Assembly: GCF_900109465.1 (NCBI RefSeq) | Contig: NZ_FOAZ01000016.1 | Coordinates: 9,628 to 73,627 of the forward strand | DNA length: 64,000 bases | Direction: 5' to 3' | DNA from: Streptacidiphilus jiangxiensis | GTDB lineage: Bacteria; Actinomycetota; Actinomycetes; Streptomycetales; Streptomycetaceae | In this document: in pieces, positions 13,601 through 58,000 of the stretch | Layout of the letters: every line of letters begins with the position of its first letter | How positions within the stretch are numbered: the stretch's first letter is position 1 | Position numbers and translations under genes: made by a program | Notes under the pieces: generated by a model | Told to the model about the DNA's origin: nothing | What the model saw: only the letters and a program-made list of their open reading frames with translations | The model's database searches: none

Positions 13601-13641
13601 CGGGTCATCATGCACCACCGCGTCTGCGGCCCCCGCCCCGC

Positions 13642-14550: not shown

Positions 14551-14557
14551 GGGCCCG

Positions 14558-15884: not shown

Positions 15885-15915
15885 AACTGGCTCACTTCCG
15901 GGCGGTTCGGTCAGG

Positions 15916-17057: not shown

Positions 17058-17151
17058 GCGTCTATGTTGACATCCGTCGATACAGGAGAGCAAGCTCGGT
17101 CCTGCATAGATGCTCATCGAAACAGCCAGATCGTGCCAGTGGAGGTCCGCC
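17058..17151. promoter_or_regulatory. divergent arsR/arsI promoter region
   Basis: The 94 bp between the arsR and arsI starts must hold both promoters. A TTGACA at 17067-17072 reads toward arsI. TCTATG (17061-17066) and a distant CATAGA (near 17105-17110) form a possible pair of half-sites. ArsR proteins normally bind such regions to shut off both sides. No exact operator is claimed. The arsI ribosome site is GGAGG at 17141-17145. Confidence 0.4.
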
Positions 17152-17622
17152 ATGTCCCGCGTCCAGCTCGCCCTCAACGTCGCCGACCTCGAGGCGTCGG
17201 TGGCGTTCTACTCCAGGCTCTTCGGCACCGAGCCCGCCAAGCGCCGCCCCGGCTACGCGAACTTCGCCATCGCCGAGCCCCCGCTCAAGCTCGTCCTCAT
17301 CCAGGGCGAGCCGGGCCAGGAGACCCGCCTCGACCATCTCGGTGTCGAAGTCGCCTCCACCGAGGACGTCGCCGCCGCGACCACGCGCCTCAAGGACGCG
17401 GGCCTGGCCACCTTCGAGGAGAACGACACCTCCTGCTGCTACGCGCTCCAGGACAAGGTCTGGGTCCACGGCCCGGGCAAGGAGCCCTGGGAGGTCTACG
17501 TCGTCAAGGCCGACGCCGACCACCTCGGCAAGGCGCCGGTTCTGGTCGGCGACGCATGCTGCACCGCGCCGGTCTCCGCCGCCGAGCCGACCGAGGCCTC
17601 CGGTTGCGCCTGTGGCGGCTGA
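17152..17622 (+). CDS. arsI: ArsI/CadI-family dioxygenase, C-As bond lyase
   Basis: A 156-residue vicinal-oxygen-chelate protein of the ArsI/CadI family. ArsI enzymes use Fe(II) and O2 to cleave the carbon-arsenic bond of trivalent methyl- or aryl-arsenicals, releasing arsenite. Seen: VQLALNVADLEASVAFYSRLF at the N-terminus (Gln5 a likely metal ligand), LDHLGVEV with His62, the vicinal pair SCCY (Cys95-Cys96) that holds the arsenical, and EPWEVYVVKAD with Glu114. A Cys-rich tail (GDACCTAP and GCACGG) adds thiols. GGAGG 6 nt upstream fixes the ATG. Divergence from arsR-channel-arsC fits arsenic detoxification. Confidence 0.88.
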   Translation: MSRVQLALNVADLEASVAFYSRLFGTEPAKRRPGYANFAIAEPPLKLVLIQGEPGQETRLDHLGVEVASTEDVAAATTRLKDAGLATFEENDTSCCYALQDKVWVHGPGKEPWEVYVVKADADHLGKAPVLVGDACCTAPVSAAEPTEASGCACGG

Positions 17623-17640: not shown

Positions 17641-18414
17641 TCAGCGCAGCGCGGCGGCCACCGCCTCCAGTGCCGGCCCCGCGGACTCCTGGGTGAGAAA
17701 GAAGTGCCCGCCGGGGAAGGTGCGGCAGGTGAACGGACCGGTCGTGGCGGACGCCCAGCGTGAGAGGTCGTCGGGGGTGTGGCGGTCGTCGGCGCCGCCG
17801 AGGGCGGTGACCGGGCAGGCGAGCCGCCCGACGGGCGGGTCGGCGTGGTGGCTCTCGCACAGGGCGTAGTCGGCGCGGAAGATCGGCAGGAGGAGGTCGA
17901 GGAGTTCCGGCGTGGCGAGCACGTCCTCCGCGGTTCCGCCCATCTCGCGCAGGTCCTCGACGAGTTCGGTGTCGCTCCACGCGTCGCGGCCGGTCACGGG
18001 TGGCGTGGAGCCGGGTCCGCCGGTGCCGCTGAGCAGGAGGTGCTCGGGCGCGCGTCCGCCGTGTTCGGCAGCGGTCAGGGCGACGCCGTGGGCGAGCAGC
18101 GCGCCCAGGCTGTGGCCGAACAGCGCGTAGGGGAGCGGCACGAGCGCGTCCCGGATCCCGGAGTGCACCGCGGTGACGGTGGCCCGGTAGTCCGTGAGCG
18201 CGGGTTCGTTGAACCGGCCTTCGCGGCCCGGCAGGTGGATGGCGAGGGCCTCGACGTCCCGTGGCAGTCCGGTCGCCCAGGTGCGGTAGAAGGACGGTCC
18301 CGCGCCGGCCGGCGGGAAGCAGAGCAGCCGAAGTCGGGGCGTCGCGCAGTGGTTCAGCGGGCGGAGCCAGGGGGTTGCGCCCGGCGCGTGGCGGGGCGGG
18401 ACGCTCGTGTGCAT
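17641..18414 (-). CDS. type II thioesterase of the peptide cluster
   Basis: A 257-residue alpha/beta hydrolase of the external thioesterase type that clears mis-acylated carrier proteins in NRPS systems. Seen: LLCFPPAGAGPSFYRTW near 31-46, the nucleophile elbow FGHSLGALLAHG (Ser102), ALGGADDRHTPDDL (likely Asp) and FPGGHFFLTQ (His). Length is normal. Start ATG at 18414 lacks a strong ribosome site. It follows MbtH on the same strand but a strong hairpin (18450-18484) separates them, so its transcription may be attenuated. Its stop is 18 bp from the arsI stop, marking the left border of the cluster. Confidence 0.9.
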   Translation of the reverse strand: MHTSVPPRHAPGATPWLRPLNHCATPRLRLLCFPPAGAGPSFYRTWATGLPRDVEALAIHLPGREGRFNEPALTDYRATVTAVHSGIRDALVPLPYALFGHSLGALLAHGVALTAAEHGGRAPEHLLLSGTGGPGSTPPVTGRDAWSDTELVEDLREMGGTAEDVLATPELLDLLLPIFRADYALCESHHADPPVGRLACPVTALGGADDRHTPDDLSRWASATTGPFTCRTFPGGHFFLTQESAGPALEAVAAALR

Positions 18415-18497: not shown

Positions 18498-18710
18498 TCA
18501 GGCCTCGGCCATGGCGGCGACGAGGCTGGCCGGGCGCATGTCGGTCCAGTTGGTCTCGACGTAGTCGACGCAGGCCTGACGGTTGTCGGGGCCGTGAGCG
18601 GTGGTCCAGCCGGCCGGGACGTCGATGAAGGCGGGCCAGAGCGAGTGCTGGTTCTCCTGGTTGACGAGCACGAGGTAGGTGCTGTCGGCGTCCTCGAAGG
18701 GATTGGCCAT
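18498..18710 (-). CDS. MbtH-like protein
   Basis: A 70-residue MbtH-family chaperone that binds NRPS adenylation domains and aids their folding or activity. The family signature is complete: [19 protein letters not shown], then [15 protein letters not shown] and [10 protein letters not shown], with the three invariant Trp at 25, 35 and 55. AGAAAGGA lies just upstream of the ATG. It is the only MbtH seen in the window and probably serves several of the ten A domains in the divergent operon. A hairpin at 18795-18828 separates it from the dioxygenase gene, so it may have its own promoter in 18711-18794. Confidence 0.95.
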
Positions 18711-18829: not shown

Positions 18830-19492
18830 TCAGAGCGGGAGGCTGGGGAGGCCAGGGAAGCCGGACAGTCCCGGGAGGTCGTAGCGTCGGCGGATGCTGC
18901 TGCCGTGGCGCCGGACGTCGGTGCCGTAGACGTGCAGCGAGACCGCGAGGTCGTCGCCGCCGTTGCGGACCAGGTGGATGTCGCCGGGCGGGGTCAGGTG
19001 GGTGACGGTGCCGGGCGGGTTGACCGTCGTCGCCACCGGCTTCAGCTCGGCCCGGCCGTCCGGGTGCCGGTCGAAGCGGTAGCTCGTCTCCTCCTCCGTC
19101 CCGCGGTAGGTGCCGACGACGCACCAGGTGGTGTGGTCGTGGACGGGGGTCGCCTGGCCGGGCAGCCAGACCAGGGCGACCAGCGAGAAGCGTCCCTGCG
19201 GGTCCACGTGCAGGACGTGCTGCCGGTAGTGCTCCGGGTCGGGCTGCAGGTGCTCGGCGGCGAGCAGGTCCGGGTGGCGCAGGAAACCTGCGAGGCGGCG
19301 GGCGACCCGCTCGGCGGTGCGGTCGGCGGGCTCGGTACCGGGGGCGGCGCGCACCGCCCGGGTGAGGACCTCGGCGAGCTCGACCGTCCGCGGCGACGCG
19401 CCGGGCGCGGTGGCGGGCAGGGGTACGTGACCCGGCGCGGGCCGGGTGGGCTGCGCGGGTTGCCGGGGTGAGGGGATGGAGACGAGGGACAT
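18830..19492 (-). CDS. cysteine dioxygenase family thiol dioxygenase
   Basis: A 220-residue cupin of the bacterial cysteine dioxygenase family, which adds O2 to L-cysteine to form cysteine sulfinate at an Fe(II) centre. The three-His site is visible as PVHDHTTWC (His118, His120) and GDIHLVRN (His173). Tyr189 in SLHVYG matches the Tyr of the Cys-Tyr cofactor, and Cys124 lies near the position of its partner, where many bacterial members have Gly. The N-terminal ~35 residues are Pro-rich and poorly conserved. It lies 71 bp downstream of the cysteate-synthase-like gene. That a sulfur-oxidising enzyme sits in an NRPS arm is unusual and suggests precursor supply. Confidence 0.85.
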   Translation of the reverse strand: MSLVSIPSPRQPAQPTRPAPGHVPLPATAPGASPRTVELAEVLTRAVRAAPGTEPADRTAERVARRLAGFLRHPDLLAAEHLQPDPEHYRQHVLHVDPQGRFSLVALVWLPGQATPVHDHTTWCVVGTYRGTEEETSYRFDRHPDGRAELKPVATTVNPPGTVTHLTPPGDIHLVRNGGDDLAVSLHVYGTDVRRHGSSIRRRYDLPGLSGFPGLPSLPL

Positions 19493-19563
19493 GGGGGAAC
19501 CGCTCCTCGGCGCTGGGGTGTCGGCTGAGGGGAATGGGCAGGGAAGACCGGGGTCCGTGGGGT

Positions 19564-20910
19564 CTACGGGCCGGTGAGGACAGCGGGCTGACGGGTGGTC
19601 GCCACGCTGTGGGTGAGTGCGGCGGCGATGTCGGCGACCCACCGCGGGTCGTGGGCGGCCTCGCGCGGGACGACGAGCGTCGGCGCGTTGGCCTCCAAGC
19701 GGTGCTCGCGGCGGTAGCGCGCCCGGCCGCCGCCGGTGATGTTGAGCAGGACGGTGGCGTCCGCGTCGACGCGTCCCTCGCGCAGGGCCGTGCGCAGGGC
19801 GGCCAGGGCGACGCCCGCGGGGGGTTCGATGTCGACGCCCTCCAGCTCGGCGAAGGCCTCCATGGCGGCGCGGGCGGTGGCGCTGTCCTCGGCCAGGACG
19901 TCGCCGCGGCTCTCGCGCAGGGCGGCGGCCAGCCCGCCCGCGGTGTCGTACGGGGGGCGGCGGTTGGTCAGCTCGGGGGCGAACGCCCGGTGGATCGCGT
20001 CGGGTTCGGGGTCGGCGCGCTCCCACGGCCGCACGCCGGTGTGCCAGGCGGTGTGGACGGGAGCGAAGCAGGAGTTCTGGGCGAGGACCAGGCGGGGGAG
20101 CGGCCCGGCCTGCTCGCCGCCGGTACATCGCAGCCGCAGCGCTGCCTCGTGGGCGGCGATGGCTCCGGCCCCGCTGCCGATGGCCTGGACGTAGACGTCG
20201 GGCAGCCGGCCGAGCTCCTCGTAGGCGGCGAGCACGACCGTGCCGAGGCCGTCGCGGCGGCCGACGTTGCGCGTGCCGCCCTCCGGGGTGAAGCCGGGCA
20301 GCGCCGCGATCGCGTCGGCGAGGGCGATCGCGTCCGCGTACTCGGCGTCGGCCACGGCGACCAGCCGGACCGACGGGCCGTAGGGGGTGCGCGAGCGCAA
20401 CTGTCCGAGTGCGCTCTGCGGCACCACCACGACGACGGGCACGTCGTGGCGTGAGCACAGCTCGGCGAAGGCGACGGCGGTGTTCCCGGCCGAGGCGACG
20501 ACCAGGGTGCCGGCGGCCTCGGGGAGCCTGCCGAGGACGGTGGCGGCCTCCAGCTCCTTGAACGAGCAGGTGGTGAGGTCGGCGCCCCACTCGGGGTGGT
20601 AGCCGTTGAAGGCGATCCACAGCTCGCGCAGGCCGAGCTCGGCGCCGAGCCGTGCGGCGCGACGGACGACGGTGCGTCCGGTGTCGGGCAGGCTCCGGCG
20701 CACGGGCAGCCACCGGTGGTAGCGGTAGACGCCCGTCGCCCGGTCGTCCGGGGTGAATCCACCTCGGGTGTACTCGGTTCGCAGCAGGGAGGCGCCGTGC
20801 GGGGCGGGACAGCCGAGTGCCGTCCCGTCGTCCTCGCGGCGGTCGCCGCATTCGCAGCAGACGAGCCGGTAGTGACCGGCGTCGGTCTGTGGCAGTCGGT
20901 CAGCGGGCAT
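19564..20910 (-). CDS. cysteate synthase-like PLP enzyme (threonine synthase fold)
   Basis: A 448-residue fold-type II PLP enzyme. It resembles archaeal cysteate synthase, which makes L-cysteate from O-phosphoserine and sulfite, more than ordinary threonine synthase. Matching segments are WIAFNGYHPEWGADLTTCSF followed by KELEA (likely Schiff-base Lys118), TLVVASAGNTAVAFAE, GFTPEGGTRNVGRRDGLGTV, YVQAIGSGAGAIAAHEAALR and LNITGGG (phosphate-binding Gly loop). These motifs are compared from memory. A Cys-rich N-terminus (LVCCECGDR, LGCPAPH) looks like the small zinc-ribbon-like lobe of that group. It starts the minus-strand arm of the cluster, with the cysteine dioxygenase downstream. Another beta-substituted alanine as product is possible. 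Confidence 0.72.
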   Translation of the reverse strand: MPADRLPQTDAGHYRLVCCECGDRREDDGTALGCPAPHGASLLRTEYTRGGFTPDDRATGVYRYHRWLPVRRSLPDTGRTVVRRAARLGAELGLRELWIAFNGYHPEWGADLTTCSFKELEAATVLGRLPEAAGTLVVASAGNTAVAFAELCSRHDVPVVVVVPQSALGQLRSRTPYGPSVRLVAVADAEYADAIALADAIAALPGFTPEGGTRNVGRRDGLGTVVLAAYEELGRLPDVYVQAIGSGAGAIAAHEAALRLRCTGGEQAGPLPRLVLAQNSCFAPVHTAWHTGVRPWERADPEPDAIHRAFAPELTNRRPPYDTAGGLAAALRESRGDVLAEDSATARAAMEAFAELEGVDIEPPAGVALAALRTALREGRVDADATVLLNITGGGRARYRREHRLEANAPTLVVPREAAHDPRWVADIAAALTHSVATTRQPAVLTGP

Positions 20911-21287: not shown

Positions 21288-22622
21288 ATGGGTCCTCGAC
21301 CCGTCGCCGGCCCTGCCGACGGCATCGAAGCCGACTACGCAGAGTTGCTGGTCGGCGATCTCCACGCGTCCCTCGCCTCGCCCGTGAGCGAGTCGATGAA
21401 CTTCCTCAACGAGATCGCGCTGCGCTACCCCGACGCGGTCTCCCTCGCCGCCGGGCGGCCGTACGAGGGCTACTTCGACCTCGACGACCTCCCGCGCTAC
21501 CTGTCGCTGTACCGGCGGCACCTGGCCGAGCGCCTCGGCGGCGACGAGGAGGGCGTGCGCCGCACCGTCCTGCAGTACGGCCGGACCAAGGGCGTCATCC
21601 ACGAACTTGTCGCCGAGCACCTGCGCCTGGACGAGGGCATCCACGCGGACCCGCAGGACCTCGTCGTGACCGTCGGCTGCCAGGAGGCCCTCTACCTGAC
21701 CCTGCGCGCCCTACGCCGGGACGAGCGCGACGTGCTGCTCGCCGTCGCGCCCAGCTACGTCGGCGTGCACGGAGCCGCAGGCCTGGTCGACATGACGCTG
21801 GTGCCGGTCCGTGGCACGGCCGACGGCATCGACCTCGACGACCTGGTGGCGCGCATCCGCGAGATCAGGGCGAGGGGCCTCAACCCCCGCGCCTGCTACG
21901 TGATCCCCGACTTCGCCAACCCCAGCGGCATCCGGATGAGCCTGGAGACGCGCCGGCGACTGCTGCGCATCGCCGCCGAGGAGGACGTGCTCCTCCTGGA
22001 GGACAACCCCTACGGGCTCTTCGGCGACCCGGACGGGCCGCCCACCCTCAAGGCCTTGGACACCGCCGCCCGCGTCGTCTACCTCGGCAGCTTCGCCAAG
22101 ACCGGCCTGCCGGGCGCCCGCGTCGGCTACGTCCTGGCCGAACAGCGCGTCAGCGACGCTCACGGCAGCGCCGGCACGCTCGCGGACCAGCTGGCCAAGG
22201 TCAAGAGCATGCTCACGGTGAACACCTCGCCGATCGCCCAGGCGGTCATCGGCGGCAAGCTGCTGGCCCACGGCTGCAGCCTGCGCGAGGCCAACGTCCG
22301 CGAGATCGCCACCTACCGCGCCAACCTCACCCGGATGCTGGACGGCCTCGAGCGCCGCCTCGGCGACGTTCCCGGCGTCAGCTGGAACGCTCCCGAGGGC
22401 GGCTTCTTCCTGCTGCTCACCGTCCCCTTCCCGGCCGGCGACGACCTGCTGGAGCACTGCGCCTCGACCTACCAGGTGCTGTGGACCCCGGTGCACCACT
22501 TCTACGCCGACACCCGCCCCCGGAACGTCATGCGGCTCTCCTTCAGCCACCTGCGGCCCGAGGAGATCGAGACGGGACTGGACCGGCTGGCCCGGTTCGT
22601 CCGGGACCAGCAGCAGAACTGA
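21288..22622 (+). CDS. hpgT: HpgT-like aminotransferase for arylglycine formation
   Basis: A 444-residue class I PLP aminotransferase of the HpgT/PgAT group, which aminates 4-hydroxy- or 3,5-dihydroxyphenylglyoxylate. Seen: VSLAAGRPYEGYFDLDDLPR, VTVGCQEALYLTL, YVIPDFANPSGIRMSLETRR (NPSG), LLEDNPYGLFG and SFAKTGLPGARVGYVLAE with the Schiff-base Lys. Start ATG at 21288 is chosen from AGAGGA 7 nt upstream, and homology begins soon after. It heads the plus-strand operon and lies 19 bp before dpgA, so here its product is most likely 3,5-dihydroxyphenylglycine (Dpg). No Hpg-forming HmaS or Hmo gene is present in the window. Confidence 0.88.
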   Translation: MGPRPVAGPADGIEADYAELLVGDLHASLASPVSESMNFLNEIALRYPDAVSLAAGRPYEGYFDLDDLPRYLSLYRRHLAERLGGDEEGVRRTVLQYGRTKGVIHELVAEHLRLDEGIHADPQDLVVTVGCQEALYLTLRALRRDERDVLLAVAPSYVGVHGAAGLVDMTLVPVRGTADGIDLDDLVARIREIRARGLNPRACYVIPDFANPSGIRMSLETRRRLLRIAAEEDVLLLEDNPYGLFGDPDGPPTLKALDTAARVVYLGSFAKTGLPGARVGYVLAEQRVSDAHGSAGTLADQLAKVKSMLTVNTSPIAQAVIGGKLLAHGCSLREANVREIATYRANLTRMLDGLERRLGDVPGVSWNAPEGGFFLLLTVPFPAGDDLLEHCASTYQVLWTPVHHFYADTRPRNVMRLSFSHLRPEEIETGLDRLARFVRDQQQN

Positions 22623-22641: not shown

Positions 22642-23730
22642 ATGACGACGACCCTCCCCGCCACGACCGACCTGGCCCGCATCGTCGCGGTCAGCACCGC
22701 CGTCCCGGAGACCTCCTACTCGCAGGCGGAGCTCCTGGACATCTTCCGGATCGAGGACCCCCGCGTCCGATCCGTCTTCCTCAACAGCGCCATCGACCGC
22801 CGTCACCTGACCCTGCCGCCCGAAGGCCCCGACGGCACCCGGGTGATGGAGGTCCAGGGACAGCTGCTCGCCAAGCACAAGACGCACGCCGTCGACATGG
22901 GCGTGCGTGCCGTCCAGGACGTCCTCAAGCAGACCGGGGCCGACCTCTCCGACATCGGCTACCTGTGCTGCGTCACCACGACCGGCTTCCTCACCCCGGG
23001 CCTCAGCGCCCTGATCATCCGCGAGCTGGGCATCGACCCGCACACCAGCCGTCTCGACGTCGTGGGCATGGGCTGCAACGCCGGCCTCAACGCCCTGAAC
23101 GCCGTCAACGGCTGGTCCCGCGCCAACCCCGGCCGGCTGGCCGTCATGGTCTGCGCGGAGGCCTGCTCCGCCGCCTACGTCTTCGACGGCACCATGCGCA
23201 CCTCCGTCGTCAACAGCCTCTTCGGTGACGGCGCCGCCGCAGTCGCGCTGATGGCCGGTGAGCCCGAGCTGCCGCTCGCGCACGCCGAGGGTCCGCGGAT
23301 CCTCAAGTTCGCCAGCTACATCATCACCGACGCCGTCGACGCGATGCGCTACGACTGGGACGACACCCAGGACCGGTTCAGCTTCTACCTCGACCCCCAG
23401 GTCCCCTACGTCGTCGGGGCCCACGCCGAACGCGTCGTCGACCGCCTGCTCGCCGGCACCGGCCTGCGGCGCAGCGACATCCGGCAGTGGTTGGTCCACT
23501 CCGGCGGCAAGAAGGTCATCGACGCCGTCGGCGTCAACCTCGGCCTGACCCGCCACGACGTCCGCCACACCACCGGGGTGCTGCGCGACTACGGCAACCT
23601 CTCCAGCGGCTCGTTCCTCTTCTCCTACGAGCGCCTGCTGCAGGAGCAGGTCGTCGAACCCGGCGACCACTGCGTGCTGATGACCATGGGCCCCGGCTCG
23701 ACGATCGAGACCGCGCTCGTCCGCTTCTGA
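22642..23730 (+). CDS. dpgA: 3,5-dihydroxyphenylacetyl-CoA synthase, type III polyketide synthase
   Basis: DpgA condenses four malonyl-CoA units toward 3,5-dihydroxyphenylacetyl-CoA, the carbon skeleton of Dpg. The 362-residue chalcone-synthase-fold protein shows the catalytic triad: Cys145 in GMGCNAGLNALN, His286 in LVHSGGKK and Asn319 in YGNLSSGS. GPGSTIETAL near the C-terminus is the usual closing motif. Length matches the family. It precedes dpgB by 85 bp, and the full A-B-C-D order as in glycopeptide clusters leaves little doubt about the role. Confidence 0.95.
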   Translation: MTTTLPATTDLARIVAVSTAVPETSYSQAELLDIFRIEDPRVRSVFLNSAIDRRHLTLPPEGPDGTRVMEVQGQLLAKHKTHAVDMGVRAVQDVLKQTGADLSDIGYLCCVTTTGFLTPGLSALIIRELGIDPHTSRLDVVGMGCNAGLNALNAVNGWSRANPGRLAVMVCAEACSAAYVFDGTMRTSVVNSLFGDGAAAVALMAGEPELPLAHAEGPRILKFASYIITDAVDAMRYDWDDTQDRFSFYLDPQVPYVVGAHAERVVDRLLAGTGLRRSDIRQWLVHSGGKKVIDAVGVNLGLTRHDVRHTTGVLRDYGNLSSGSFLFSYERLLQEQVVEPGDHCVLMTMGPGSTIETALVRF

Positions 23731-25797
<2,067 letters not shown>

Positions 25798-25887: not shown

Positions 25888-26697
25888 ATGGAAGCCGCCA
25901 ACCTCACCCGCGTGCGCTACGAGAAGCGCGGGCACGTCGCCCACGTGACCCTCGACCGGCCCGACCGCGCCAACGCGATGGACCTGCGCATGCACGAGGA
26001 ACTCGCCTTCGTCTGGGACGACTTCGAGGCCGACGACGAACTGTGGCTGGCCGTCCTCACCGGCGCCGGGGAGCGTGCCTTCTCCGCCGGGCAGGACCTC
26101 AAGGAGCTCGCCGCCCGCATCGAGGACGGCAGCAACGCGCCCTCCACCTTCGGCAGCCGCGGCAAGCCCGGCTGGCCCCGACTGACCGAGCGCTTCGAGC
26201 TCGCCAAGCCGGTCCTCGCCCGCGTCAACGGCGCCGCCTTCGGCGGCGGCTTCGAGCTCGCCCTCGCCTGCGACGTCATCGTCGCGGCCGACACCGCCAC
26301 CTTCGCCCTGACCGAGGCGAAGCTCGGGCTGATCGCCGGAGCGGGCGGCGTCTTCCGCCTCACCCGGCAGGCCCCCTACCGCGTCGCCCTCGGCCACCTC
26401 ATCAGCGGCCGCCCGATGACCGCCGACCGCGCCTACCAGCTCGGGCTGGTCAACGAGGTCGTCCCCGCCGCGGACCTCGACGCCGCCGTCGACGCCTGGG
26501 TCGCGGACATCCTCGGCTGCGCCCCGCTGGCCGTGCGCGCCGTCAAGCAGGCCGCAGCGGCCGCCGCCACGATGCCGCTCCAGCAGGCGTTCGCGACCCG
26601 GTTCCCGTGGGAGGAGCGCCGCATGCACAGCGAGGACGCCGACGAAGGTCCGCGCGCCTTCGTCGAGAAGCGCCCGCCGCGCTGGCAGGGCCGCTGA
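25888..26697 (+). CDS. dpgD: DpgD, enoyl-CoA hydratase of Dpg formation
   Basis: A 269-residue crotonase that works with DpgA and DpgB in the formation of 3,5-dihydroxyphenylacetyl-CoA. Seen: [36 protein letters not shown] (oxyanion segment), [23 protein letters not shown] and [19 protein letters not shown]. The C-terminal helix ends with [17 protein letters not shown], typical of hydratases. It is flanked on both sides by perfect hairpins (25823-25856 and 26729-26748). It is followed 90 bp later by the first synthetase. Confidence 0.92.
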
Positions 26698-26787: not shown

Positions 26788-45929
<19,142 letters not shown>

Positions 45930-45930
<1 letters not shown>

Positions 45931-48900
45931 TGATCCCGGTTTCTTTCGCACAGCAGCGGCTGTGGTTCCTCGGCCAGCTCGAAGGACCGAACGCCACCTA
46001 CAACATCCCTCTCGGCCTGCGGCTCACCGGCCCGCTCGACGCCGCGGTGCTCGACGCCGCCCTGGTGGACGTCGTCGGCCGGCACGAGGTGCTGCGCACT
46101 GTCTTCCCCGCCGTCGACGGCGAGCCCTGGCAGGACATCCGGCCCGCCGACAGCGTCGGCTCGCTGCTGACCGTCGTCGACGCCGCCGCCCTCGACGAGA
46201 CGGCCCTGCGCGAGGAGATCGCGCGCGCCTCCGCGCACGCCTTCGACCTCGCCGACGAACTGCCGCTGCGGGCCTGGCTGTTCAGCCAGGGCCCCGCGGA
46301 CCACGCGCTGCTGCTGGTGGTGCACCACATCGCCGGTGACGGCTGGTCCATGGGACCGCTCGCCCGCGACGTCTCCACCGCCTACGCCGCCCGCCTGGCG
46401 GGCGGCGAGCCCGAGTGGGACGAACTGCCTGGCCAGTACGCCGACTACGCGCTGTGGCAGCGCGAACTGCTCGGCGAGGAGGACGACCCGGAGAGCCTGC
46501 TCACCGAGCAGCTCGCCTACTGGCGCGAGACGCTGGCCGACCTCCCCGAGGAGCTGGCCCTGCCCTACGACCGGCCGCGCCCGCCGGTCGTCGGGCACCG
46601 TGGCGGCACGGTCGAGTTCGCGATCCCGGCCGAGCTGCACCAGCGCGCCGCCGACCTGGCCCGTGCCCAGGGCGGCACGTTGTTCATGGTGCTCCAGAGC
46701 GCCCTGGCCGTGTTGCTGTCGCGTCTCGGCGCCGGCACCGACATCCCCGTCGGCACCGCCGTCGCCGGCCGGATGGACGAGGGCCTGAACGACCTCGTCG
46801 GCTTCTTCGTCAACACCCTCGTGCTGCGCACCGACCTGTCCGGCGACCCGACCTTCGCCGAGGTGCTGCGCCGCTCCCGCGAGGCGGGGCTCGGCGCCTT
46901 CGCCCATCAGGACGTGCCGTTCGAGCGGCTGGTGGAGGACCTGGCCCCCTCGCGGTCGATGGCCCGGCACCCGCTGTTCCAGGTCATGCTGTCGCTCCAG
47001 AACAACGCCCAGCCGCAGCTGGACCTGCCGGGCCTGACGGCCCAGGCGTTGGAGGGCGGCGAGGCCCCGGCCAAGTTCGACCTCGCCTTCACCTTCGGCG
47101 AGCAGGCGGACGCAGCAGGCCTGTGGGGCAACGTCACCTTCGCCGCCGACCTGTTCTACGCCGCGACGGCGCAGCAGCTCGGCGACGGCTTCATCCGCGT
47201 GCTGGAGTCCGTGGTCGCCGACCCCCGGCAGCCCGTCTCCCGCGTCGAGATCCTGGACGCGCCCGAGCGCGACCGGATCCTCGCCGAGTGGAGCACCGGC
47301 GCCGCGCCACTGCCGGAGGCAGCCGGGACCCAGTCGGAGGCGTCCGGGACCCTGCCGCAGCGGTTCGCCGCCCAGGCCGCCCGCACCCCGCAGGCCGTGG
47401 CCGTCGCGGCGGCCGACGGCGTCGAGCTGACCTACGCCGAGCTGGACGCGCGCGCCAACGGCCTGGCCCGGCGCCTGGCCGCCGAGGGCGTACGCGCGGA
47501 GAGCGCCGTCGCCGTGCTGATGGACCGCTCCGCCGACCTCGTCGTCGCCCTGCTCGCCGTGGCGAAGGCGGGCGGGTTCTTCGTGCCCCTGGACTCCCGC
47601 TACCCCCTCGCGCACCGCGAGGCGATCGTCGCCGAGACGGGCGCGAAGCTCGTCCTCACCGACGCCGCCTCGCGCGACGAGGCCGACGCGCTCGGCCGCA
47701 CCGTCGTCCTGGTCGGCGACGACCGAGGCGAGCCCGTCCAGGTGGCCTGCGACCCGAGTCAGCTTGCCTACGTGATGTACACCTCCGGCTCGACCGGCCG
47801 CCCCAAGGGCGTGGCCGTCACGCAGCGCGACGTGGTCGCGCTGGCCTCGGACTCCCGCTACTGCGATGGGGGTTTCGAGCGAGTGCTCGTGCACTCGCCG
47901 TACTCCTTCGACGCGTCGACGTTCGAGCTGTGGGTGCCGCTGCTGAACGGCGGCCGCGTGGTCGTCGCGCCCGCCGGCGAGCTGTCGGCGGCAGCGCTCG
48001 GTCGCATCGTGGCCGAGCAGGGCGTGACGGCGCTGTGGCTGACGGCGGGCCTGTTCGCCGTCGTCGCCGAGGAGGAGCCGGGCAGCCTGCGCGGCGTCGC
48101 GCAGGTGTGGACCGGCGGCGACGTCGTCTCGCCCGTCGCGGTCGCGCGCGTCCTTGACGCCTGCCCCGGCCTGACGGTCGTCAACGGCTACGGTCCGACG
48201 GAGACGACGACCTTCGCCGCCACCCACGCGGTCGAGCAGGCCCCCCAGGGTGCGTTCCCGATCGGGCGCCCGCTCGACGGCATGCGCGCCTACGTGCTGG
48301 ACGAGCGCCTGCGCCCCGTCCCGGCGGGCTGCATCGGCGAGCTCTACCTCGCGGGGGCCGGCCTGTCGCGCGGCTACTACGACCGTCCGGCGCTGACGGC
48401 GGAGCGGTTCGTCGCCGACCCGCACGGCGTCGACGGCGGGCGGATGTACCGCACCGGTGACCTGGCCCGGTGGAACCGCAGCGGCCTGCTGGAGTACGCG
48501 GGCCGTGCCGACCAGCAGGTCAAGCTGCGCGGCTTCCGCATCGAGCCGGGCGAGATCGAGGCCGTGCTCGGCGCACACCCCGCCGTCGGCCGGGCCGCCG
48601 TCGTGGTCCGCGAGGACGCCCCGGGCGTCAAGCGTCTGGTCGGCTACATCGTCCCGGCAGCCGAGGTGACGGCCGAGGAGCTGCGCGCCCACCTCGCGCA
48701 GCGGCTGCCCGAGTACATGGTCCCGGCCGCCTTCGTGCTGCTGGACGCGCTGCCGCTGACCGTCAACGGCAAGCTCGACCGCCGCGCCCTGCCCGCCCCG
48801 GACCTGGCCGTCACCGAGAGCCGCGAGCCGCGCACCCCGCAGGAGCAGGCGCTCGCCGCCCTCTTCGCCGAGATCCTCGGCCTGCCGGCCGTCGGCGCCG

Positions 48901-49050
48901 ACGACGACTTCTTCGAGCTCGGCGGCCACTCGCTGCTCGCCACCCGCCTCGTCAGCCGCGTCCGCACCGCCCTCGGCGTCGAGCTGCCGATCCGCGCGCT
49001 CTTCGAGGCGCCCACCGTCGCCGCGCTCGCCGCCCGCCTCGTCACGCAGC
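45930..49050 (+). other. NRPS module 7: C(LCL)-A(Val-like)-T
   Basis: LCL-type C domain accepting an L-Dpg donor from synthetase 1 (HHIAGDGWS at 132). Code DAFWWGGTFK from SFDASTFEL, LWLTAGLF, VWTGGD and [11 protein letters not shown]. It equals valine code DAFWLGGTFK apart from Trp at position 299. Prediction Val or a similar aliphatic residue, moderate trust. Confidence 0.6.
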
Positions 49051-52000
49051 AGGACGGCGTCGACCGCCGCCGCCCCGCGCTGACCGCCGCCGAGCGGCCC
49101 GAGCACCTGCCGGTCTCGTTCGCGCAGCAGCGCCTGTGGTTCCTCGGCGAGCTGGAGGGGCCGAGCGCCACCTACAACATCCCGCTCAGCCTCGACCTCA
49201 CCGGTCCGGTGCAGGCCGACGCGCTGGAGGCTGCCCTGCGCGACGTCGTCGCCCGGCACGAGGTACTGCGCACCGTCTTCACCACCGTCGAGGGACAGCC
49301 GTGCCAGCGCGTCCTGCCCGTCGACGCAGTGGGCCCGCTGCTGACCGTCGGCGCCCACGACGACGAGGCCGTCACCCGCGCGGCCCGGCACGTCTTCGAC
49401 CTGGCGGCCGAACCCCCCGTCCACGCCTGGCTGTTCTCCCAGGACACCGAGCGGCACAGCTTCGTCGTGGTGGTGCACCACATCGCCGGTGACGGCTGGT
49501 CGATGGCGCCGCTGGCGCGCGACGTCTCCGTCGCCTACGCGGCCCGCCTGCGCGGCGAGGCGCCGGTGTGGGAGCCGTTGCCGGTGCAGTACGCGGACTA
49601 CGCGCTGTGGCAGCGTGAGCTGCTGGGCTCCGTTGAGGACGAAGGCAGCCTGCTGGCCGAGCAGTTGGGCTACTGGCGCGAGGCCCTGGCCGAGCTGCCG
49701 GAGGAGCTGGCGCTGCCGGCCGACCGGCCGCGTCCGGCCGTCGCGAGCCACGAAGGCGGAACCGTCGCCTTCACCGCCCCCGCCGAGGAGCACGCACGCT
49801 TGCTCGAGCTGGCGCGCGCGGAGGGCGTGACGCCGTTCATGGTGCTGCAGGCCGCGCTCGCGGTGCTGCTGTCCCGCCTGGGCGCCGGCACGGACATCCC
49901 GATCGGCACGCCGATCGCGGGCCGCACCGACGACGCGCTGGACGAGCTGGTCGGCTTCTTCGTCAACACGCTCGTGCTGCGCGCCGACCTGTCCGGCGAC
50001 CCGACCTTCACCGAGCTCCTCGCCCGCGTGCAGGAGCGGAGCCTCGGCGCGTATGCGCACCAGGACGTGCCGTTCGAGCGGCTTGTCGAGGAGCTCGCGC
50101 CGTCGCGCTCGATGGCCCGGCACCCGCTCTTCCAGGTCCTGCTCTCGCTGCAGAACAACGCGCAGGCCGCGCCGGACCTGTCCGGACTCGACGTCCGCCA
50201 CGTCCCCGCCGGTGACCTGGCCGCCCGCTATGACCTCGCCTTCACACTCGGCGAGCGCCACGCCGCCGACGGCGCCCCGGCGGGTCTGTACGGCACCGTC
50301 ACCTTCGCCCGCGACCTCTTCGACGCCGCCACCGCCGAGCGGCTCGCCGAGCGCCTGCTCGCCGTCCTGCGCACCGTCCTTGCCGACCCGGGCCGCCCCG
50401 TCGCCCACGTCGAGGTGCTGGACGCCGAGGAGCGGCACCGCATCGTGACCGAGTGGAACGCCACCGGCCACGCCGTCCCCGACACCACGCTGACGGGCCT
50501 GATCGAGGCCCAGGTCTCCCGCACGCCGGACGCCGTCGCGCTCGTCGACGAGAGCGCCGAGCTGACCTACGCCGAGATGAACGCGCGGGCCAACCGCCTC
50601 GCCCGGCGGCTCGCCGCGCGCGGCGTGGGCGCGGAGACGACGGTGGCGCTGCTCCTGGAGCGTTCGGCGGACGTGTTTGTCGCCATGCTGGCGGTGCTCA
50701 AGGCGGGTGGGGCGTATGTGCCGATCGACCCGGAGTACCCGGTAGACCGGATCGCGTACATGGTTTCGGACCCGGCGCCGCGGGTGCTGCTGACGAGCCG
50801 CGCGTGCGTGGAGCGGGCCGGTGACACGTCCGGTGTCGAGGTTCTTCTGCTGGACGAGCTGTCCACCGACGGTTTCGAGGACACGGACCTGGGGGTGGCG
50901 ATCGAGCCGCAGCACCCGGCGTACGTGATCTACACCTCCGGCTCGACCGGGCGCCCGAAGGGCGTCGTGCTGCCGCACGCGGCCGTGGTCAACTACCTCG
51001 CGCGCGTCGTCGAGGCGTATCCGGAGGTGCGCGAGAGCACCCTGATGCACTTCTCGATCTCCTTCGACGCCGGTGTCACGGCCCTCTACGGCGCGCTGGC
51101 CTCCGGCGGACGCGTGCAGGTCGCGCCGCTGGACGAGCACTTGCCGGACGCGCTGGCCGACGCCCGGCCCGGCTTCCTCAAGGTGACGCCCAGCGGTCTG
51201 GCGTACCTGGACGCGATGTCGGACGCTCACGCGCCGTCGGGCCGGTTGATGGTCGGCGGTGAGGCGATCCAGGGTGCGCAGTTGGAGCAGTGGCGCAGGG
51301 CGCACCCGGGCGTGGCGGTGGTGAACCACTACGGCCCGACCGAGGCGACGGTCGGCTGCACCGACTATCTCGTCGGCGACGACGTCGAGTTGGGTGCGGT
51401 GGTGCCGATCGGTCGTCCGATGTGGAACACCCAGGCCTACATCCTGGATGCCGGGCTGCGCCCGGTGCCCGCCGGTGTGGCGGGCGAGCTCTACATCGCG
51501 GGCGCGCAGCTCGCGCGCGGCTACCTCGGCCGTCCGGCGCTGACCTCCGAGCGGTTCGTCGCCAACCCGTTCGTCGGGTCCGGCGCGCGGATGTACCGCA
51601 CCGGCGACCTGGCGCGCTGGCGCGCGGACGGCAACATCGAGTACCTGGGCCGCACCGACGACCAGGTCAAGATCCGCGGCTACCGCATCGAACTCGGCGA
51701 GATCGAAGCCCAGTTGGCCGCTCACCCGGCCGTCGCGCACGGAGTCGTGGTCGTCCGCGAGGACGTGCCCGGCGACAAGCGGCTGATCGGATACGTGGTC
51801 CCCGAGGCGGACTTCGACGCGGCCGTCGTGCGGGCCGATCTCGCCGCCGTCCTGCCGGACTTCATGGTGCCCGCGGCCATTGTGGCGCTGGACGTCCTGC
51901 CGCGGACGGTCAACGGCAAACTCGACCGTCGCGCGCTGCCCGCACCGGACTTCGGCACCGCCACCGCGAGCGCCTACCGTGCCCCCGTCACCGAGCGCGA

Positions 52001-55000
52001 GCAGGTCGTCTGCGAGGTCTTCGCCCAGGTGCTGGGTGTCGAACGGGCCGGTCTGGACGACGACTTCTTCGAGCGCGGCGGCCACTCCCTGCTCGCCGTC
52101 TCACTGGTGGAGAAGCTCCGGGCCCGCGGCGTGCCGGTGGACGTGCGCACCCTGTTCACCTCCCCGACCCCGGCCCGCCTGGCCGCCGCGACCGCCGCCG
52201 GTCAGGCCACCGGCGTCGTCGTGCCGCCGAACCTGATCCCGGCCGACGCCACGCACCTCACCCCGGACATGCTGCCGCTCGTCGCCCTCACCGAGGCCGA
52301 GATCGACCGCATCGTCTCCGCTCTCCCCGGCGGCGCGGCGAACATTGCCGACGTCTACCCCCTCGCGCCGCTCCAGGAAGGCATCTTCTTCCACCACCTG
52401 CTCGCCACCGACGGCGAGGACCCCTACGTCCTGCCGTCGCTGCTCACCTTCGACTCGCGCGAGCGCCTCGACGCCTTCCTCGATGCGCTGCGATTCGTGA
52501 TCGACCGTCACGACATCCTGCGCACCGCCTTCTTCTGGCAGCGTCTCCCCGAGCCGGTGCAGGTCGTCGCCCGCCGGGCCCAGCTGCCCGTCGAGACCGT
52601 CGAGTTGAGCGGCGAGCTGGACCCGGTCGCCGAACTCCACGCCGCCTGCCCGGCCCGGATGGACATCGGCGCCGCACCGCTGCTGCGCGCCTTCGTCGCC
52701 GCCGAACCCGGCAGCGGGCGCTGGCTGCTGGTGCTCCAGCGGCACCACCTGATCAACGACCACACTGCGCTCGACGTGCTGATGTCCGAGATCCGGGCGG
52801 TACTGGCGGGGGAGCAGGAGAGCCTGCCCACGCCGCTGCCGTTCCGCGACTTCGTCGCCCAGGCCCGGCTCGGCATCTCCCGTGAGGAGCACGAGCGTTA
52901 CTTCGCCGGCGTGCTGGGCGACGTGGCCGAACCGTCCGCACCCTTCGGGCTGCTGGACGTGCGCGGCGACGGCAGCACCGTCGACCGCGCCCGCCTGCCG
53001 CTCGCGCCTGAACTCGCGGCCCGCGTCCGGGATCAGGCGCGCCTGCTGGGGGTGAGCCCGGCGACGCTGTTCCACGTGGCCTTCGCTCGTGTCGTGGCGG
53101 CGACGGCCAACCGTGACGACGTCGTCTTCGGCACGCTGCTCTTCGGCCGGATGAACGCCGGCAGCGGCGCCGACCGCGTGCCCGGCCTGTTCATCAACAC
53201 CCTCCCCGTCCGCCTCGACACCGCCGCCCACACCGTCGCCGACGCGGTCGGCGCGATGCGCGGCCAGCTCGCCGACCTCCTCGTCCACGAGCACGCCCCG
53301 CTGGCCCTCGCCCAGCGCGCCAGCGGCATCACCGCCCCTGCCCCGCTGTTCACCGCCCTGCTCAACTACCGCCACGGGCGCGGCCACAGCGAGGAGCCCG
53401 CCACCGACCTCGGCATCGGCCTCGAACACGGCGAGGACCGCACCAACTACCCGCTCACCGTCTCCGTCGACGACCACGGCAACGCGCTCAACCTCTCCGT
53501 CATCGCCGTCGCGCCCATCGACGCGGAACTCGTCTGCACCCTGCTGGGCACCGCCGTCGAGGGCCTGGTCACCGCGCTGGAGACCGCGCCGCACACCTCC
53601 CTGCACGCCATCGACGTCCTGGACGACGCACTGCGGCAGCGCATGCTGACGGAGTGGACCAAGCAGCCCGTCCACCGGCCCGTCGCGACCCTCCCGGAGC
53701 TCTTCGAGGCGCAGGCCGCGCGCACGTCCGACCACGTCGCCGTCTCCTTCGGCGCGCCCGGCCAGGACCGTACCGAGCTGACCTACGCCGACCTGAACGC
53801 CCAGGCCAACCGCCTCGCCCGCCTGCTGGTCGACCGCGGCGTCGGACCCGAGACGCTGGTGGCCGTCGCCATGCCGCGCTCGGCCGAGCTGGTCGTCGCG
53901 CTGCTCGCCGTCCTCAAGGCCGGTGGTGCCTATCTGCCGATCGACCCGGACTACCCGGCCGACCGCATCGCCTACATGCTCGACGACGCCCGTCCGCTGC
54001 TGACCCTCACCACCGCAGGCAGCGGCGAGACGCCCGGGGAGCGCCTGGTCCTGGACGACCCGGCCACGCGGCAGCTCCTCGCGGCCGTCCCCGACACCGA
54101 CCTGACGGCGGACGAGCGGCGCGGCCGGCTGCTCCCCGAGCACCCCGCCTACGTCATCTACACCTCCGGCTCCACCGGCCGCCCCAAGGGCGTGCTGATC
54201 CCGCACGGCAACGTCGCCCGCCTCTTCGGCGCCACCGACGACTGGTTCGGCTTCACCGCCGACGACGTGTGGACGTGGTTCCACTCCTTCGCCTTCGACT
54301 TCTCGGTGTGGGAGCTGTGGGGCGCCCTGCTCGTCGGCGGCCGGCTCGTCGTCGTGCCGTCCGACGTCTCCCGCTCGCCCGCCGACTTCCTCGCGCTGCT
54401 GGTCCGCGAGCAGGTGACGATCCTCAACCAGACGCCGTCCGCCTTCTACCAGCTGATGCAGGCCGACGCGCAGGACCCGGAGCTCGGTGCGAGGCTGAAG
54501 CTGCGCGGCGTCGTCTTCGGCGGCGAGGCCCTGGACCTGCCGCGCCTGCGCTCCTGGTACGCGCGCCACCGCGACGACGCCCCGGTGCTGGTCAACATGT
54601 ACGGCATCACCGAGACCACGGTGCACGTCAGCTACGCCGAACTGGACGCCGCGCTGGTCGGCGGCGGCGCCACCGGCAGCGTCATCGGGCGCGCCATCCC
54701 GGACCTGCGTGTCTACGTGCTCGACCCGTCGCTGCGGCTGTGCCCGCCCGGGACGGCCGGCGAGCTCTACGTCGCGGGCGCCGGGCTGGCCCGCGGCTAC
54801 CTCGGCCGTCCGGCCCTGACCGCGGACCGCTTCGTGGCCGACCCCTACGGCACCACGCCCGGCGAGCGCATGTACCGCACCGGGGACGTCGTGCTGTGGA
54901 ACCGCCACGGGGAGCTGGAGTTCGTCGGCCGCGCCGACGACCAGGTCAAGATCCGCGGCTTCCGCATCGAGCTGGGCGAGGTGGAGAACGCGCTCGCCGC

Positions 55001-58000
55001 GCACCCGTCCGTCGCCCAGGCCACCGCCCTGGTGCGCGAGGACGTGCCGGGCGACAAGCGCCTGGTCGCCTACGTGGTCCCCGCCGCTGCCGCGGCCACC
55101 GTCGACCCGGCCGAGCTGCGCCGCCACGCGGCCGAGTCGCTGCCGGACTACATGGTCCCGGCCGCCGTCGTGCCGCTGGACGTGCTGCCGCTGACCGTCA
55201 ACGGCAAGCTGGACCGCCGGGCGCTGCCCACCCCGGAGTTCACCGCCGCCGCCGGGTACCGGGCACCGTCCGGTGCCCGCGAGGAGGTCATCTGCGAGGT
55301 CTTCGCGCAGGTCCTCGGCGTCGAACGCGTCGGCGTGGACGACGACTTCTTCGAGCTGGGCGGTCACTCGCTGCTCGCCGTCTCGCTCGTGGAGAAGCTG
55401 CGCACGCGCGGCGTCCAGGTCAACGTCCGGGCGCTGTTCTCCACCCCCACCGTGGCCGGGCTCGCGGGTGCCGCGACCGTCGCCGAGGTGGAGGTGCCGC
55501 CGAACCTGATCCCGGCCGACGCCACCGAGCTGACCCCGCAGATGCTCCCGCTGGCCTCCCTGACGCAGGCAGAGCTGGACCGGATCGTCTCCGTCTTCCC
55601 CGGCGGCGCCGCCAACATCGCCGACGTCTACCCGCTGGCGCCGCTCCAGGAGGGGATCTTCTTCCACCACCTGATGAACGCCGGCGGACGCGATGTCTAC
55701 GTGCTCCCGACGGTGCTCGCGTTCGACTCCCTCACCCGCCTGCACGGTTTCCTCGGCGCGCTGCAGACGGTCGTCGACCGCCACGACGTGCTCCGCACGG
55801 CCGTGGTGTGGGAGGGCCTGGCCGAGCCCGTGCAGGTCGTCGCCCGCGCGGCGGAGATCCCCGTCACGGTCCTCGAACTGACCGGCGCCGACGACCCGGT
55901 GGCCGAGCTGCACGCCGCCTGCCCCGCCGCGATGGACCTCGGCGCGGCGCCGCTCATGCGCGCCCACATCGCCGCCGACCCGTCCGGCGCGGGCCGCTGG
56001 CTGATGCTCTTGCAGCGCCACCACCTGACCACCGACCACACCGCCATGGAGGTCCTGCTCGCCGAGATCCAGGCCGTCCTGGCCGGGGAGGGCGCGAGCC
56101 TCCCGGCGCCGATCCCGTTCCGCAACTTCGTCGCCCAGGCCCGCCTGCGGGTCACCCGCGAGGAGCACGAGCGGTTCTTCACCGACCTGCTCGGCGAGGT
56201 CACCGAGCCGACCGCCCCGTTCGGCCTGCTCGACGTGCGCGGCGACGCGGCCGAGGTCGCCGAGGCCCGCCTGCACCTCGCCGACCCGCTCGCCGGGCGC
56301 CTGCGCGGCCAGTCCCGCCGCCTGGGCGTCAGCCCCGCGACGGTGTTCCACCTCGCCTGGGCCCGCGTGGCCGCCGCGACCTCCCACCGCGAGGACGTGG
56401 TCTTCGGTACCGTCCTCTTCGGCCGCATGAACGGCGGGGACGGCGCGGACCGGGTCCCGGGGCTCTTCATCAACACCCTGCCCGTCCGGGCCCACACCAC
56501 GGGCGTCAGCGTCACCGACGCGCTCGCCGCGATGCGCGGCCAGCTCGCGGACCTGCTCGTGCACGAGCACGCCCCGCTCACCCTCGCGCAGCGCGCGAGC
56601 GGTATCGACGGCACCGCTCCGCTCTTCACCTCGCTGCTGAACTACCGTCACAGCGCGGGCGCGGAGGAGTCGGGCCGCCCGGCGGGTCCCGAGGGCATCG
56701 AGCTGCTGCTGAGCCAGGAGCGCACCAACTACCCGCTCACCGTCTCCGTCGACGACCTCGGCGACGGCTTCCGCCTCACCGCCCAGGCCCTCGCCCCGAT
56801 CGACGCGGAACGTGTCTGCCGACTGCTCCACACGACCCTCGACGCGCTCGTCGACGCCCTGGAGAACGAGCCCGGCACGGCACTCGCCACCGTCCCTGTC
56901 CTCGACGAGACCGAGACGTGGCAGGCCCTGTCGTCCGGGGACGACACCCCGCGCGAGCGCCTCCTCGGCACCGTCCCCGGGCTGTTCGCCGCCCGGGCGG
57001 CTCGCACGCCCGACGCGGTCGCCCTCGTCGGCGACAGCGGCGTGAGTTGGACCTACGCCGAGCTCGACTCCCGGGCCAACGCCCTGGCCTGGCAGCTCCG
57101 CGCCGAGGGCGTGGGCGCCGAGCGCGCCGTCGCCGTGCTGATGGAGCGCTCGCCCGAGCTGGTCGTCGCCCTGCTCGGCATCCTGAAGGCGGGCGGCTGC
57201 TTCGTCCCGCTGGACGCCCGGTACCCGCTGGCGCACCGCGAGGCGATCGTCGCCGAGACCGGCGCCGCGCTGGTCGTCACCGACGCGGCGCTGCGGACCG
57301 AGGCCGGGCAGCTGGGTCTCCCCGTCGTCGAGATCGGCGCGCAGCAGCGCCCGGACGCGCCGGAAACGATCTGCGACCCGCGGCAGTTGGCGTACGTGAT
57401 GTACACCTCGGGCTCGACCGGCCGCCCGAAGGGCGTCGCCGTCACCCACCGCGACGTCGTGGCACTCGCCACCGACGCCCGCTTCGCCGGCGAGGCGTTC
57501 GCGCGCGTGCTGGTGCACTCGCCGCACTCCTTCGACGCGTCGACGCTCGAGCTGTGGGCGCCGCTGCTGCGCGGCGGCCGCGTCGTCGTCGCCCCCGCGG
57601 GCGAGGTGACCGCATCCATGCTGCGGCGGACGGTGGCCGAGCACGGTGTCACCGCGCTGTGGCTGACGGCGGGACTGTTCTCCCTGGTCGCCGAGGAGGA
57701 CCCGAGCTGCCTGCGCGGCGTCGCGCAGGTCTGGACGGGCGGCGACGTCGTCTCGCCCGTCGCGGTCGGCCAGGTGCTGGCGGCCTGCCCCGGCACCGTG
57801 GTCGTCAACGGCTACGGCCCCACCGAGACCACGACCTTCGCGGCCACCCACGCCGTCACCGACGCCCCCTCGGGCGCGCTGCCGATCGGCCGCCCCCTGG
57901 ACGACATGCGCGCCTACGTCCTCGACGCGGGCCTGCGCCCGGTGCCCGCAGGCTGCGTCGGCGAGCTCTACCTCTCCGGCGCCGGCGTCGCCCGCGGCTA

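Follow-up and report, generated by a model that had tools for sequence, protein, structure and literature searches.

The window analysed here is a 64,000-nucleotide stretch of Streptacidiphilus jiangxiensis DNA, and it contains a nonribosomal peptide synthetase (NRPS) cluster of ten modules on two subunits, with genes for dihydroxyphenylglycine (Dpg) upstream of them. On the opposite strand lie two genes that encode a predicted cysteate synthase and a thiol dioxygenase (Table 1). They are both on the minus strand, with 71 bases between them. A first-pass annotation had described them as side by side in this way and had proposed that they provide cysteate and cysteine sulfinate for modules 5 and 8, whose adenylation (A) domains share one code. 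We introduce the two enzymes, the modules and the related clusters, and then weigh what the cluster is likely to make. Genomes and loci used for comparison are given as G and L numbers.

The synthase scores 404.9 bits against TIGR03844 (cysteate_syn), for which the curated cut-off is 324.9, and the best threonine-synthase model gives 87.6 bits. Its closest solved relative is the cysteate synthase PDB 9k3c (E 7e-90), and threonine synthases follow at about 1e-11. In a quick tree of 124 proteins, made without bootstrap and with no characterised enzyme as a row of its own, 20 threonine-synthase-like rows are split off by a branch with an SH-aLRT (approximate likelihood ratio test) support of 99. 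The window synthase is placed among the cysteate synthase homologues. Lys118, which we take to be the lysine that binds pyridoxal phosphate (PLP), is invariant across 24 sequences and is also aligned in 9k3c. Model scores, the 9k3c match and the tree split thus rule out a threonine synthase, the grouping that the first-pass annotation had named as grounds for refutation, and its call of a cysteate-synthase-like PLP enzyme is borne out. TIGR03844 is matched above its cut-off in 4 of 396 sampled genomes of the phylum and in 1 of 14 control genomes, presumably Methanosarcina. A homologue at E 1e-40 or better is present in 23 of 394 genomes of the family, the window's own genome counted. Among plasmids, a search turned up a single record, with a homologue of 51%.

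Cysteate synthases are also known from other pathways. The enzyme of Methanosarcinales belongs to TIGR03844 as well, but it serves coenzyme M in a different pathway and host. Another use is in the sulfonolipid systems (capnine, sulfobacin) of Bacteroidetes, and homologues from Bacteroidetes fall together with the window protein in the tree; in the sulfonolipid systems the cysteate passes to a fatty acyltransferase and not to an NRPS. The available part of PMC11211663 has the route from phosphoserine to sulfobacin B begin with a cysteate synthase-type enzyme. Outside Bacteroidetes and Actinomycetota, synthase homologues with 44-50% identity occur in metagenome-assembled genomes of cyanobacteria (L115, L118, L179) and Gemmatimonadales (L116, L119), and the available stretches of these five loci contain no A domain.

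The second protein of the pair matches Pfam CDO_I (33.0 bits, cut-off 23). The earlier label of cysteine dioxygenase holds for the family, but the enzyme is of the Gln type, and three of its four nearest structures are 3-mercaptopropionate dioxygenases. The solved structures closest to it (E 3.6e-30 to 5e-26) are 6xb9, 4wvz, 3uss and 4qma, and classical cysteine dioxygenase type 1 entries reach E 3.3e-5 or worse. Both 4wvz and 3uss are 3-mercaptopropionate dioxygenases, and 4qma is filed as cysteine dioxygenase type I. The entry 6xb9 is filed in the same way, and by the available text of PMC8050391 it is the Azotobacter 3-mercaptopropionate dioxygenase. The motifs YRQH, HDH, S-x-H-x-Y and SIRR can be read in the window protein. 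Arg60, which binds the cysteine carboxylate in Arg-type cysteine dioxygenases, was not found in the YRQH stretch, where Gln stands instead. This Gln is also present in 19 other copies; one further copy (L297) gave no motif line. From the motifs and the alignment to 6xb9, the protein has the Gln-type set of Gln63, three Fe-binding His, Ser-His-Tyr and Arg168 (the last on a gapped alignment), with residue roles as given in the same partial source (PMC8050391). With 6xb9, 4wvz and 3uss the window protein shares the YRQH Gln, the His pattern HxH...H, S-x-H-x-Y and the Arg of SIRR near the C terminus. Unlike these enzymes, the window dioxygenase sits in an NRPS cluster beside a cysteate synthase.

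We read the ten A-domain codes, in order, as calling presumably for a beta-amino acid (beta-Ala like), Gly, Ser, Ile/Val, an acidic residue, Dpg, Val, an acidic residue, Thr and Val. Modules 5 and 8 carry the same code, DATKMGHVGK, in agreement with the first-pass annotation. DpgA and DpgC exceed their cut-offs, and the code of A6 (DAYHGGTLCK) is, as we take it, of the Dpg type; together they mark a Dpg-containing NRPS cluster. Module spacing in the window NRPS leaves no room for a separate epimerisation (E) domain. The second, N-terminal His motif of dual condensation/epimerisation (C/E) domains is found in the condensation (C) domains of modules 2, 6, 9 and 10. Residues 5 and 8 are predicted to be D because dual C/E domains sit in modules 6 and 9, the configuration that had been proposed before. 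In the first module, the A domain (28237-29600) has the code VDTMVTYGDK in place of the usual Asp235, and we assume that it resembles beta-amino-acid codes. A similar code, IDTTVTYGDK, is located in G426 immediately before its DATKMGHVGK module.

The cluster has relatives. Ten clusters combine the synthase, an HpgT-like gene, DpgA-D and NRPS A domains: the window, G461, G582, G542, G548, G578, G517, G436, G560 and G448. The synthase of the nearest relative, Kitasatospora aureofaciens ATCC 10762 (L105), is 89% identical. A readable NRPS lies beside the Dpg genes in nine of the ten, and eight share a tail of Ile/Val-type, DATKMGHVGK, Dpg-type, Val-type, DATKMGHVGK, variable and Val-type modules. 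The upstream modules differ and are rich in Ser and Gly types, with a third DATKMGHVGK in G436. In G542 the matching modules are on other contigs, and one of them reads DATKMGHVAK. A second architecture (G704, G764, G721, G593, G472 and G691) has the synthase and one DATKMGHVGK module each, with no Dpg genes within the 40 kb tested. The same layout appears at loci of S. viridochromogenes, S. afghaniensis, S. canus, S. caeruleatus and NRRL WC-3618. L112 (Streptomyces sp. 150FB) has a synthase with DpgA, DpgC and HpgT-like matches, arranged unlike the window's family.

Position 236 of the A domain follows the synthase across these clusters. In 25 of 25 synthase loci with a Lys278 (K278) A domain in the same stretch, one such domain has Ala, Ser or Ile at 236. 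The 25 consist of 19 genome clusters and six named loci (L107, L108, L114, L120, L121, L142); L105, L106 and L117 duplicate G461, G542 and G691 and were counted once. Among 88 distinct domains with K278 and T239, Ala, Ser or Ile occupies 236 in 34 of the 37 of the synthase-positive set and in 1 of the 51 outside it, where Leu or Met is found in the other 50. The three exceptions in the synthase-positive set read DLTKVGEVGK, presumably an Asn-like code, and their clusters each hold a domain with Ala or Ser besides. The strictest control is the code DLTKMGHVGK, which differs from DATKMGHVGK only at 236; it is present in G495, G649, G602 and G708, and none of these four genomes has a synthase at E 1e-15.

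The outside domains come from the best matches to A5, among matches that exist in 275 of 394 genomes; codes were read from 30 loci and 40 further stretches among the matches listed. Excluded from the 88 were A domains lacking T239 and K278, domains under 300 aa, repeated entries, loci that had been counted as genomes, and the named loci L105, L106, L114, L117, L120, L121 and L142, whose codes are reported separately. Four stretches come from synthase-bearing genomes but lie outside the cluster: L234 (G472), L273 (G582), L274 (G578) and L286 (G560). The first three passed the filter, carry Leu236 and are counted among the 51; the three unlinked modules of G562 are among the 37. When the nine code columns are masked in an A-domain tree, the fewest changes at 236 are five, and supported branches force two. 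That the residue has changed more than once follows from G676 (DATKIGAVNK), which falls inside a supported group containing 14 Leu236 rows. The simple row association (Fisher p 9e-20) counts near relatives many times and is not to be taken at face value. The link between code and synthase is broad and partly repeated, and descent explains much of the count.

The module after the acidic residue bears on its predicted configuration. K278 modules with Ala or Ser at 236 and a readable next module are followed by a C/E motif or E-like spacing in 25 of 27 cases. Nineteen of these have the dual C/E motif and six a spacing that fits an E domain, the E reading coming from spacing alone. The exceptions, with neither C/E nor E next, are the DSTKIGHVGK modules of G594 and G718. 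For modules whose code begins with DATK (DATK modules), the count is 25 of 25, and for other modules 36 of 103.

Of the three marks of a cysteate-containing NRPS cluster of the cysteoamide kind, the window has an NRPS and a cysteate synthase; for the third, an A domain for cysteate, A5 and A8 are candidates from co-occurrence. In the proposed route, the synthase would convert O-phospho-L-serine and sulfite to L-cysteate, and A domains 5 and 8 would load it. Lys278 would pair with the sulfonate, for which the loss of Leu236 (Ala here) would create the space. Conversion of both cysteates to D would fall to the dual C/E domains in modules 6 and 9. The product would be an N-acylated decapeptide with two D-cysteate residues, and the predicted chain is acyl - beta-amino acid - Gly - Ser - Ile/Val - D-Cya (cysteate) - Dpg - Val - D-Cya - D-allo-Thr - Val. 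The dioxygenase may oxidise cysteine, or 3-mercaptopropionate, to a sulfinate whose breakdown would release sulfite for the synthase, and the pair would then be one pathway. By established chemistry, ordinary aminotransferases turn cysteine sulfinate into sulfinylpyruvate, which breaks down to pyruvate and sulfite. Cysteate synthase takes sulfite as its co-substrate, and 3-mercaptopropionate could be a source of sulfite too. We consider an N-acylated decapeptide with two D-cysteates, made from cysteate of the cluster's own, loaded by A5 and A8 and epimerised by C/E domains, to be probable.

Several observations weigh against this proposal. A descent-corrected test finds three supported independent pairs with a median p of 0.5, which puts significance out of reach, and since there are just three such pairs, kinship exaggerates the association counted by rows. 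Sampling outside the synthase-positive set favoured the domains that resemble A5 most, and the set does not sample Asp domains less like it. G426 (800 contigs, 95% complete) has a DATKMGHVGK domain, and no synthase was found in it. Because L107 and L108 carry Ile236, a rule that the residue must be small is not strict; what can be stated safely is that Leu and Met are replaced at 236, by a residue that is not always small. G517 has only five modules and one DATK code. In G562 the synthase match contains an in-frame TGA and lies about 4 Mb from the three DATK modules. In two relatives at the level of Streptomycetaceae, G504 (L050/L086-L087) and G644 (L046/L080-L081), the 80 kb read with the synthase contain no NRPS A domain of the usual sort, though G644 has one odd domain, and perhaps these synthases serve another use of cysteate. 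The Gln-type active site of the dioxygenase weakens the step from free cysteine. As a separate observation, the three DATKMGHVGK modules of G562 (L265, L266; C1 2.71-2.75 Mb) stand among DVRDxGxIEK modules.

A5 and A8 could instead load plain aspartate, with the synthase serving another step or being a passenger. Aspartate is plentiful, and we regard DATKMGHVGK as close to the Asp-type codes (DLTK...). In the accessible text of PMC12858407, the cysteic-acid module of the discodermins is also predicted as Asp, and because of this the code prediction alone cannot separate aspartate from cysteate. Loading of aspartate does not fit well with a residue 236 that tracks the synthase over two NRPS architectures and whose changes are forced on at least two supported branches. 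For a sulfonolipid path as the other step of the synthase, the sole candidates in the window are an aminotransferase-like gene (Aminotran_1_2) and a short-chain dehydrogenase/reductase (SDR) at 11244-14550. Neither protein reaches an NCBIfam cut-off among the matches listed (the best model of the SDR is 2,4-dienoyl-CoA reductase, 200 bits, under the cut-off of 318), and these genes were not found in the stretches of nine related clusters. Plain aspartate therefore appears improbable.

The role of the dioxygenase is less clear. It adjoins the synthase in seven of the ten Dpg clusters and is thus optional in the family; no copy lies beside the synthase in G542, G436 and G560. G436 is without any copy in its genome, and G542 and G560 have copies elsewhere. 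The six genomes of the second architecture have no dioxygenase match at E 1e-12 genome-wide. Cysteine sulfinate made by this enzyme could itself be the monomer, giving a peptide with sulfinates or with a mix of sulfinate and sulfonate; it is nearer to Asp in size, and the dioxygenase gene directly follows that of the synthase. The same kind of A code persists without an adjacent dioxygenase in the three Dpg clusters and the six clusters of the second type, which makes it improbable that the monomer comes from this enzyme. According to the available part of PMC8050391, a Gln-type enzyme also has a lowered affinity toward amino-bearing substrates. We disfavour the sulfinate monomer and consider it very improbable. 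Of the earlier proposal of two D-cysteate or sulfinate residues, the cysteate supply and the two D positions stand, from synthase identity and the comparison of many clusters, and the sulfinate does not.

It is also quite possible, at a little less than even, that the dioxygenase has nothing to do with the sulfur of the peptide and is, for example, a housekeeping thiol dioxygenase that has moved. Gln-type relatives are found elsewhere in many of these genomes, three sister clusters have no adjacent copy, and in the window's genome the cluster copy is the sole one and could do the housekeeping there. On the other hand, six of the seven genomes with a cluster copy (G448, G461, G582, G548, G578 and G517) hold a further copy elsewhere, so that in these six the one in the cluster seems to be a duplicate dedicated to it. 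A dioxygenase also lies directly downstream of the synthase at L110 (Streptomyces sp. NRRL B-1347), a synthase locus of a different kind. That the dioxygenase feeds sulfite to the synthase is for us about as likely as not, and likelier than that it supplies a second monomer.

Peptides with cysteate have precedents. The Streptomyces lincolnensis peptide of 2018 is said to be cysteoamide and reportedly uses a homologue of the synthase. For comparison with cysteoamide, the window cluster combines Dpg with ten modules, two of them proposed for cysteate. The six clusters without Dpg genes and with one DATK module each may be of the cysteoamide type. In one paper, cysteoamide appears as an entry in a cluster comparison. 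A cysteate-containing nonribosomal peptide of S. lincolnensis (J. Org. Chem. 2018, 83, 7102-7108) is listed by its title in PMC12858407, and, by that title, it resembles the window's prediction in being a nonribosomal peptide with cysteate. In the discodermins of 'Entotheonella', which contain cysteic acid, the A domain that puts it in place has an Asp prediction, a parallel to the proposal for the window, and the available text of PMC12858407 does not mention a cysteate synthase for them. Cysteic acid is also listed among the amino acids of natural peptides in the accessible part of PMC10628113. The first-pass annotation knew of no described peptide family with such residues; the S. lincolnensis peptide and the discodermins contradict this, as far as the available text of PMC12858407 goes. 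The annotation is partly supported overall: its core (cysteate at two D positions) was right, its sulfinate is unsupported and its claim of no precedent was wrong. In the full text of open-licence PubMed Central, no paper was found with 'cysteate synthase' and 'nonribosomal peptide', nor one that combines cysteic acid with dihydroxyphenylglycine. Open-licence papers likewise gave no case of Dpg in company with two D-cysteates, which is weak evidence with most subscription papers outside this scope. Cysteate in NRPS products is thus known; a Dpg family with two cysteates and the link to residue 236 were not found in the open-licence literature, with the same weak evidence.

Other genes surround the pair and the NRPS (Table 1). 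We take the aminotransferase beside DpgA to be HpgT, and the small protein next to the dioxygenase presumably carries the MbtH motif. At 15471-17622 there are genes for a low-molecular-weight phosphatase-type protein, a MIP channel and an ArsR regulator (-) and for a glyoxalase-type protein with Cys pairs (+). This set, which to us looks like arsenic resistance, marks the left edge of the NRPS cluster. Beyond it, a minus-strand run at 10432-15394 encodes a methyltransferase, an aminotransferase, a radical SAM protein, an SDR and an enoyl-CoA hydratase, and may be a separate small pathway. Its methyltransferase weakly matches a methyltransferase of daptide-type RiPPs (ribosomally synthesised and post-translationally modified peptides) with 98.5 bits, under the cut-off of 175. 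In the stretches of nine related clusters, no counterpart was found for the genes at 10432-14550(-), and DpgD was all that the enoyl-CoA hydratase at 14558-15394 matched there.

Table 1. Genes and domains of the NRPS cluster in the window
Feature	Position	Strand	Basis
Type II thioesterase	17641..18414	-	Pfam Thioesterase, 144 bits
MbtH-like protein	18498..18710	-	Translation recognised by eye
Gln-type thiol dioxygenase (cysteine / 3-mercaptopropionate dioxygenase family)	18830..19492	-	220 aa; CDO_I, solved relatives, motifs
Predicted cysteate synthase (PLP enzyme; O-phosphoserine + sulfite to cysteate)	19564..20910	-	448 aa; TIGR03844, 9k3c, tree, Lys118
Aminotransferase, HpgT kind	21288..22622	+	Aminotran_1_2, 96.8 bits; conserved next to DpgA (10 clusters); no NCBIfam match above its cut-off
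DpgA	22642..23730	+	NF042429, 663.9 bits, cut-off 425
DpgB-like	23738..24493	+	ECH_1, 21.1 bits, under cut-off 27; conserved position between DpgA and DpgC
DpgC (start codon uncertain)	24517..25797	+	NF042432, 700.7 bits, cut-off 530
DpgD-like enoyl-CoA hydratase	25888..26697	+	ECH_1, 204.7 bits; conserved
NRPS subunit 1, modules 1-6	26788..45930	+	VDTMVTYGDK, DILQLGLIWK, DVWHMSLVDK, DAFFWGVTFK, DATKMGHVGK, DAYHGGTLCK
A domain of module 5, proposed cysteate-specific	40975..42390	+	Code DATKMGHVGK
NRPS subunit 2, modules 7-10 and thioesterase (TE)	45930..59489	+	DAFWWGGTFK, DATKMGHVGK, DFWNVGMVHK, DALWWGGTFK
A domain of module 8, proposed cysteate-specific	50577..51986	+	Code DATKMGHVGK; extent from match to A5

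Sulfonate amino acids are strong, permanent acids and are seldom met in peptide natural products. What is new here is a predicted Dpg/bis-D-cysteate family and a candidate code for a sulfonate. Tentatively, and with slightly more doubt than confidence, we suggest that the ten clusters, eight of them with full readable tails, represent an undescribed family of actinomycete lipopeptides that conserve the tail Ile/Val - D-cysteate - Dpg - Val - D-cysteate - X - Val. A new specificity code would select the sulfonate residues, an Asp pocket becoming a cysteate pocket once Leu236 is replaced, and a moved-in dioxygenase would make sulfite on the spot. Every DATK module that can be read onward is followed by a C/E or E-like signature, and the spacing of the acids is constant in eight clusters; both suggest that the two sulfonates are central to the action of the peptide. 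If position 236 separates cysteate from aspartate, prediction tools that call Asp would be wrong in many clusters. If this role of the residue is true, a change of one residue would be a direct test of how an A domain recognises a sulfonate as opposed to a carboxylate.

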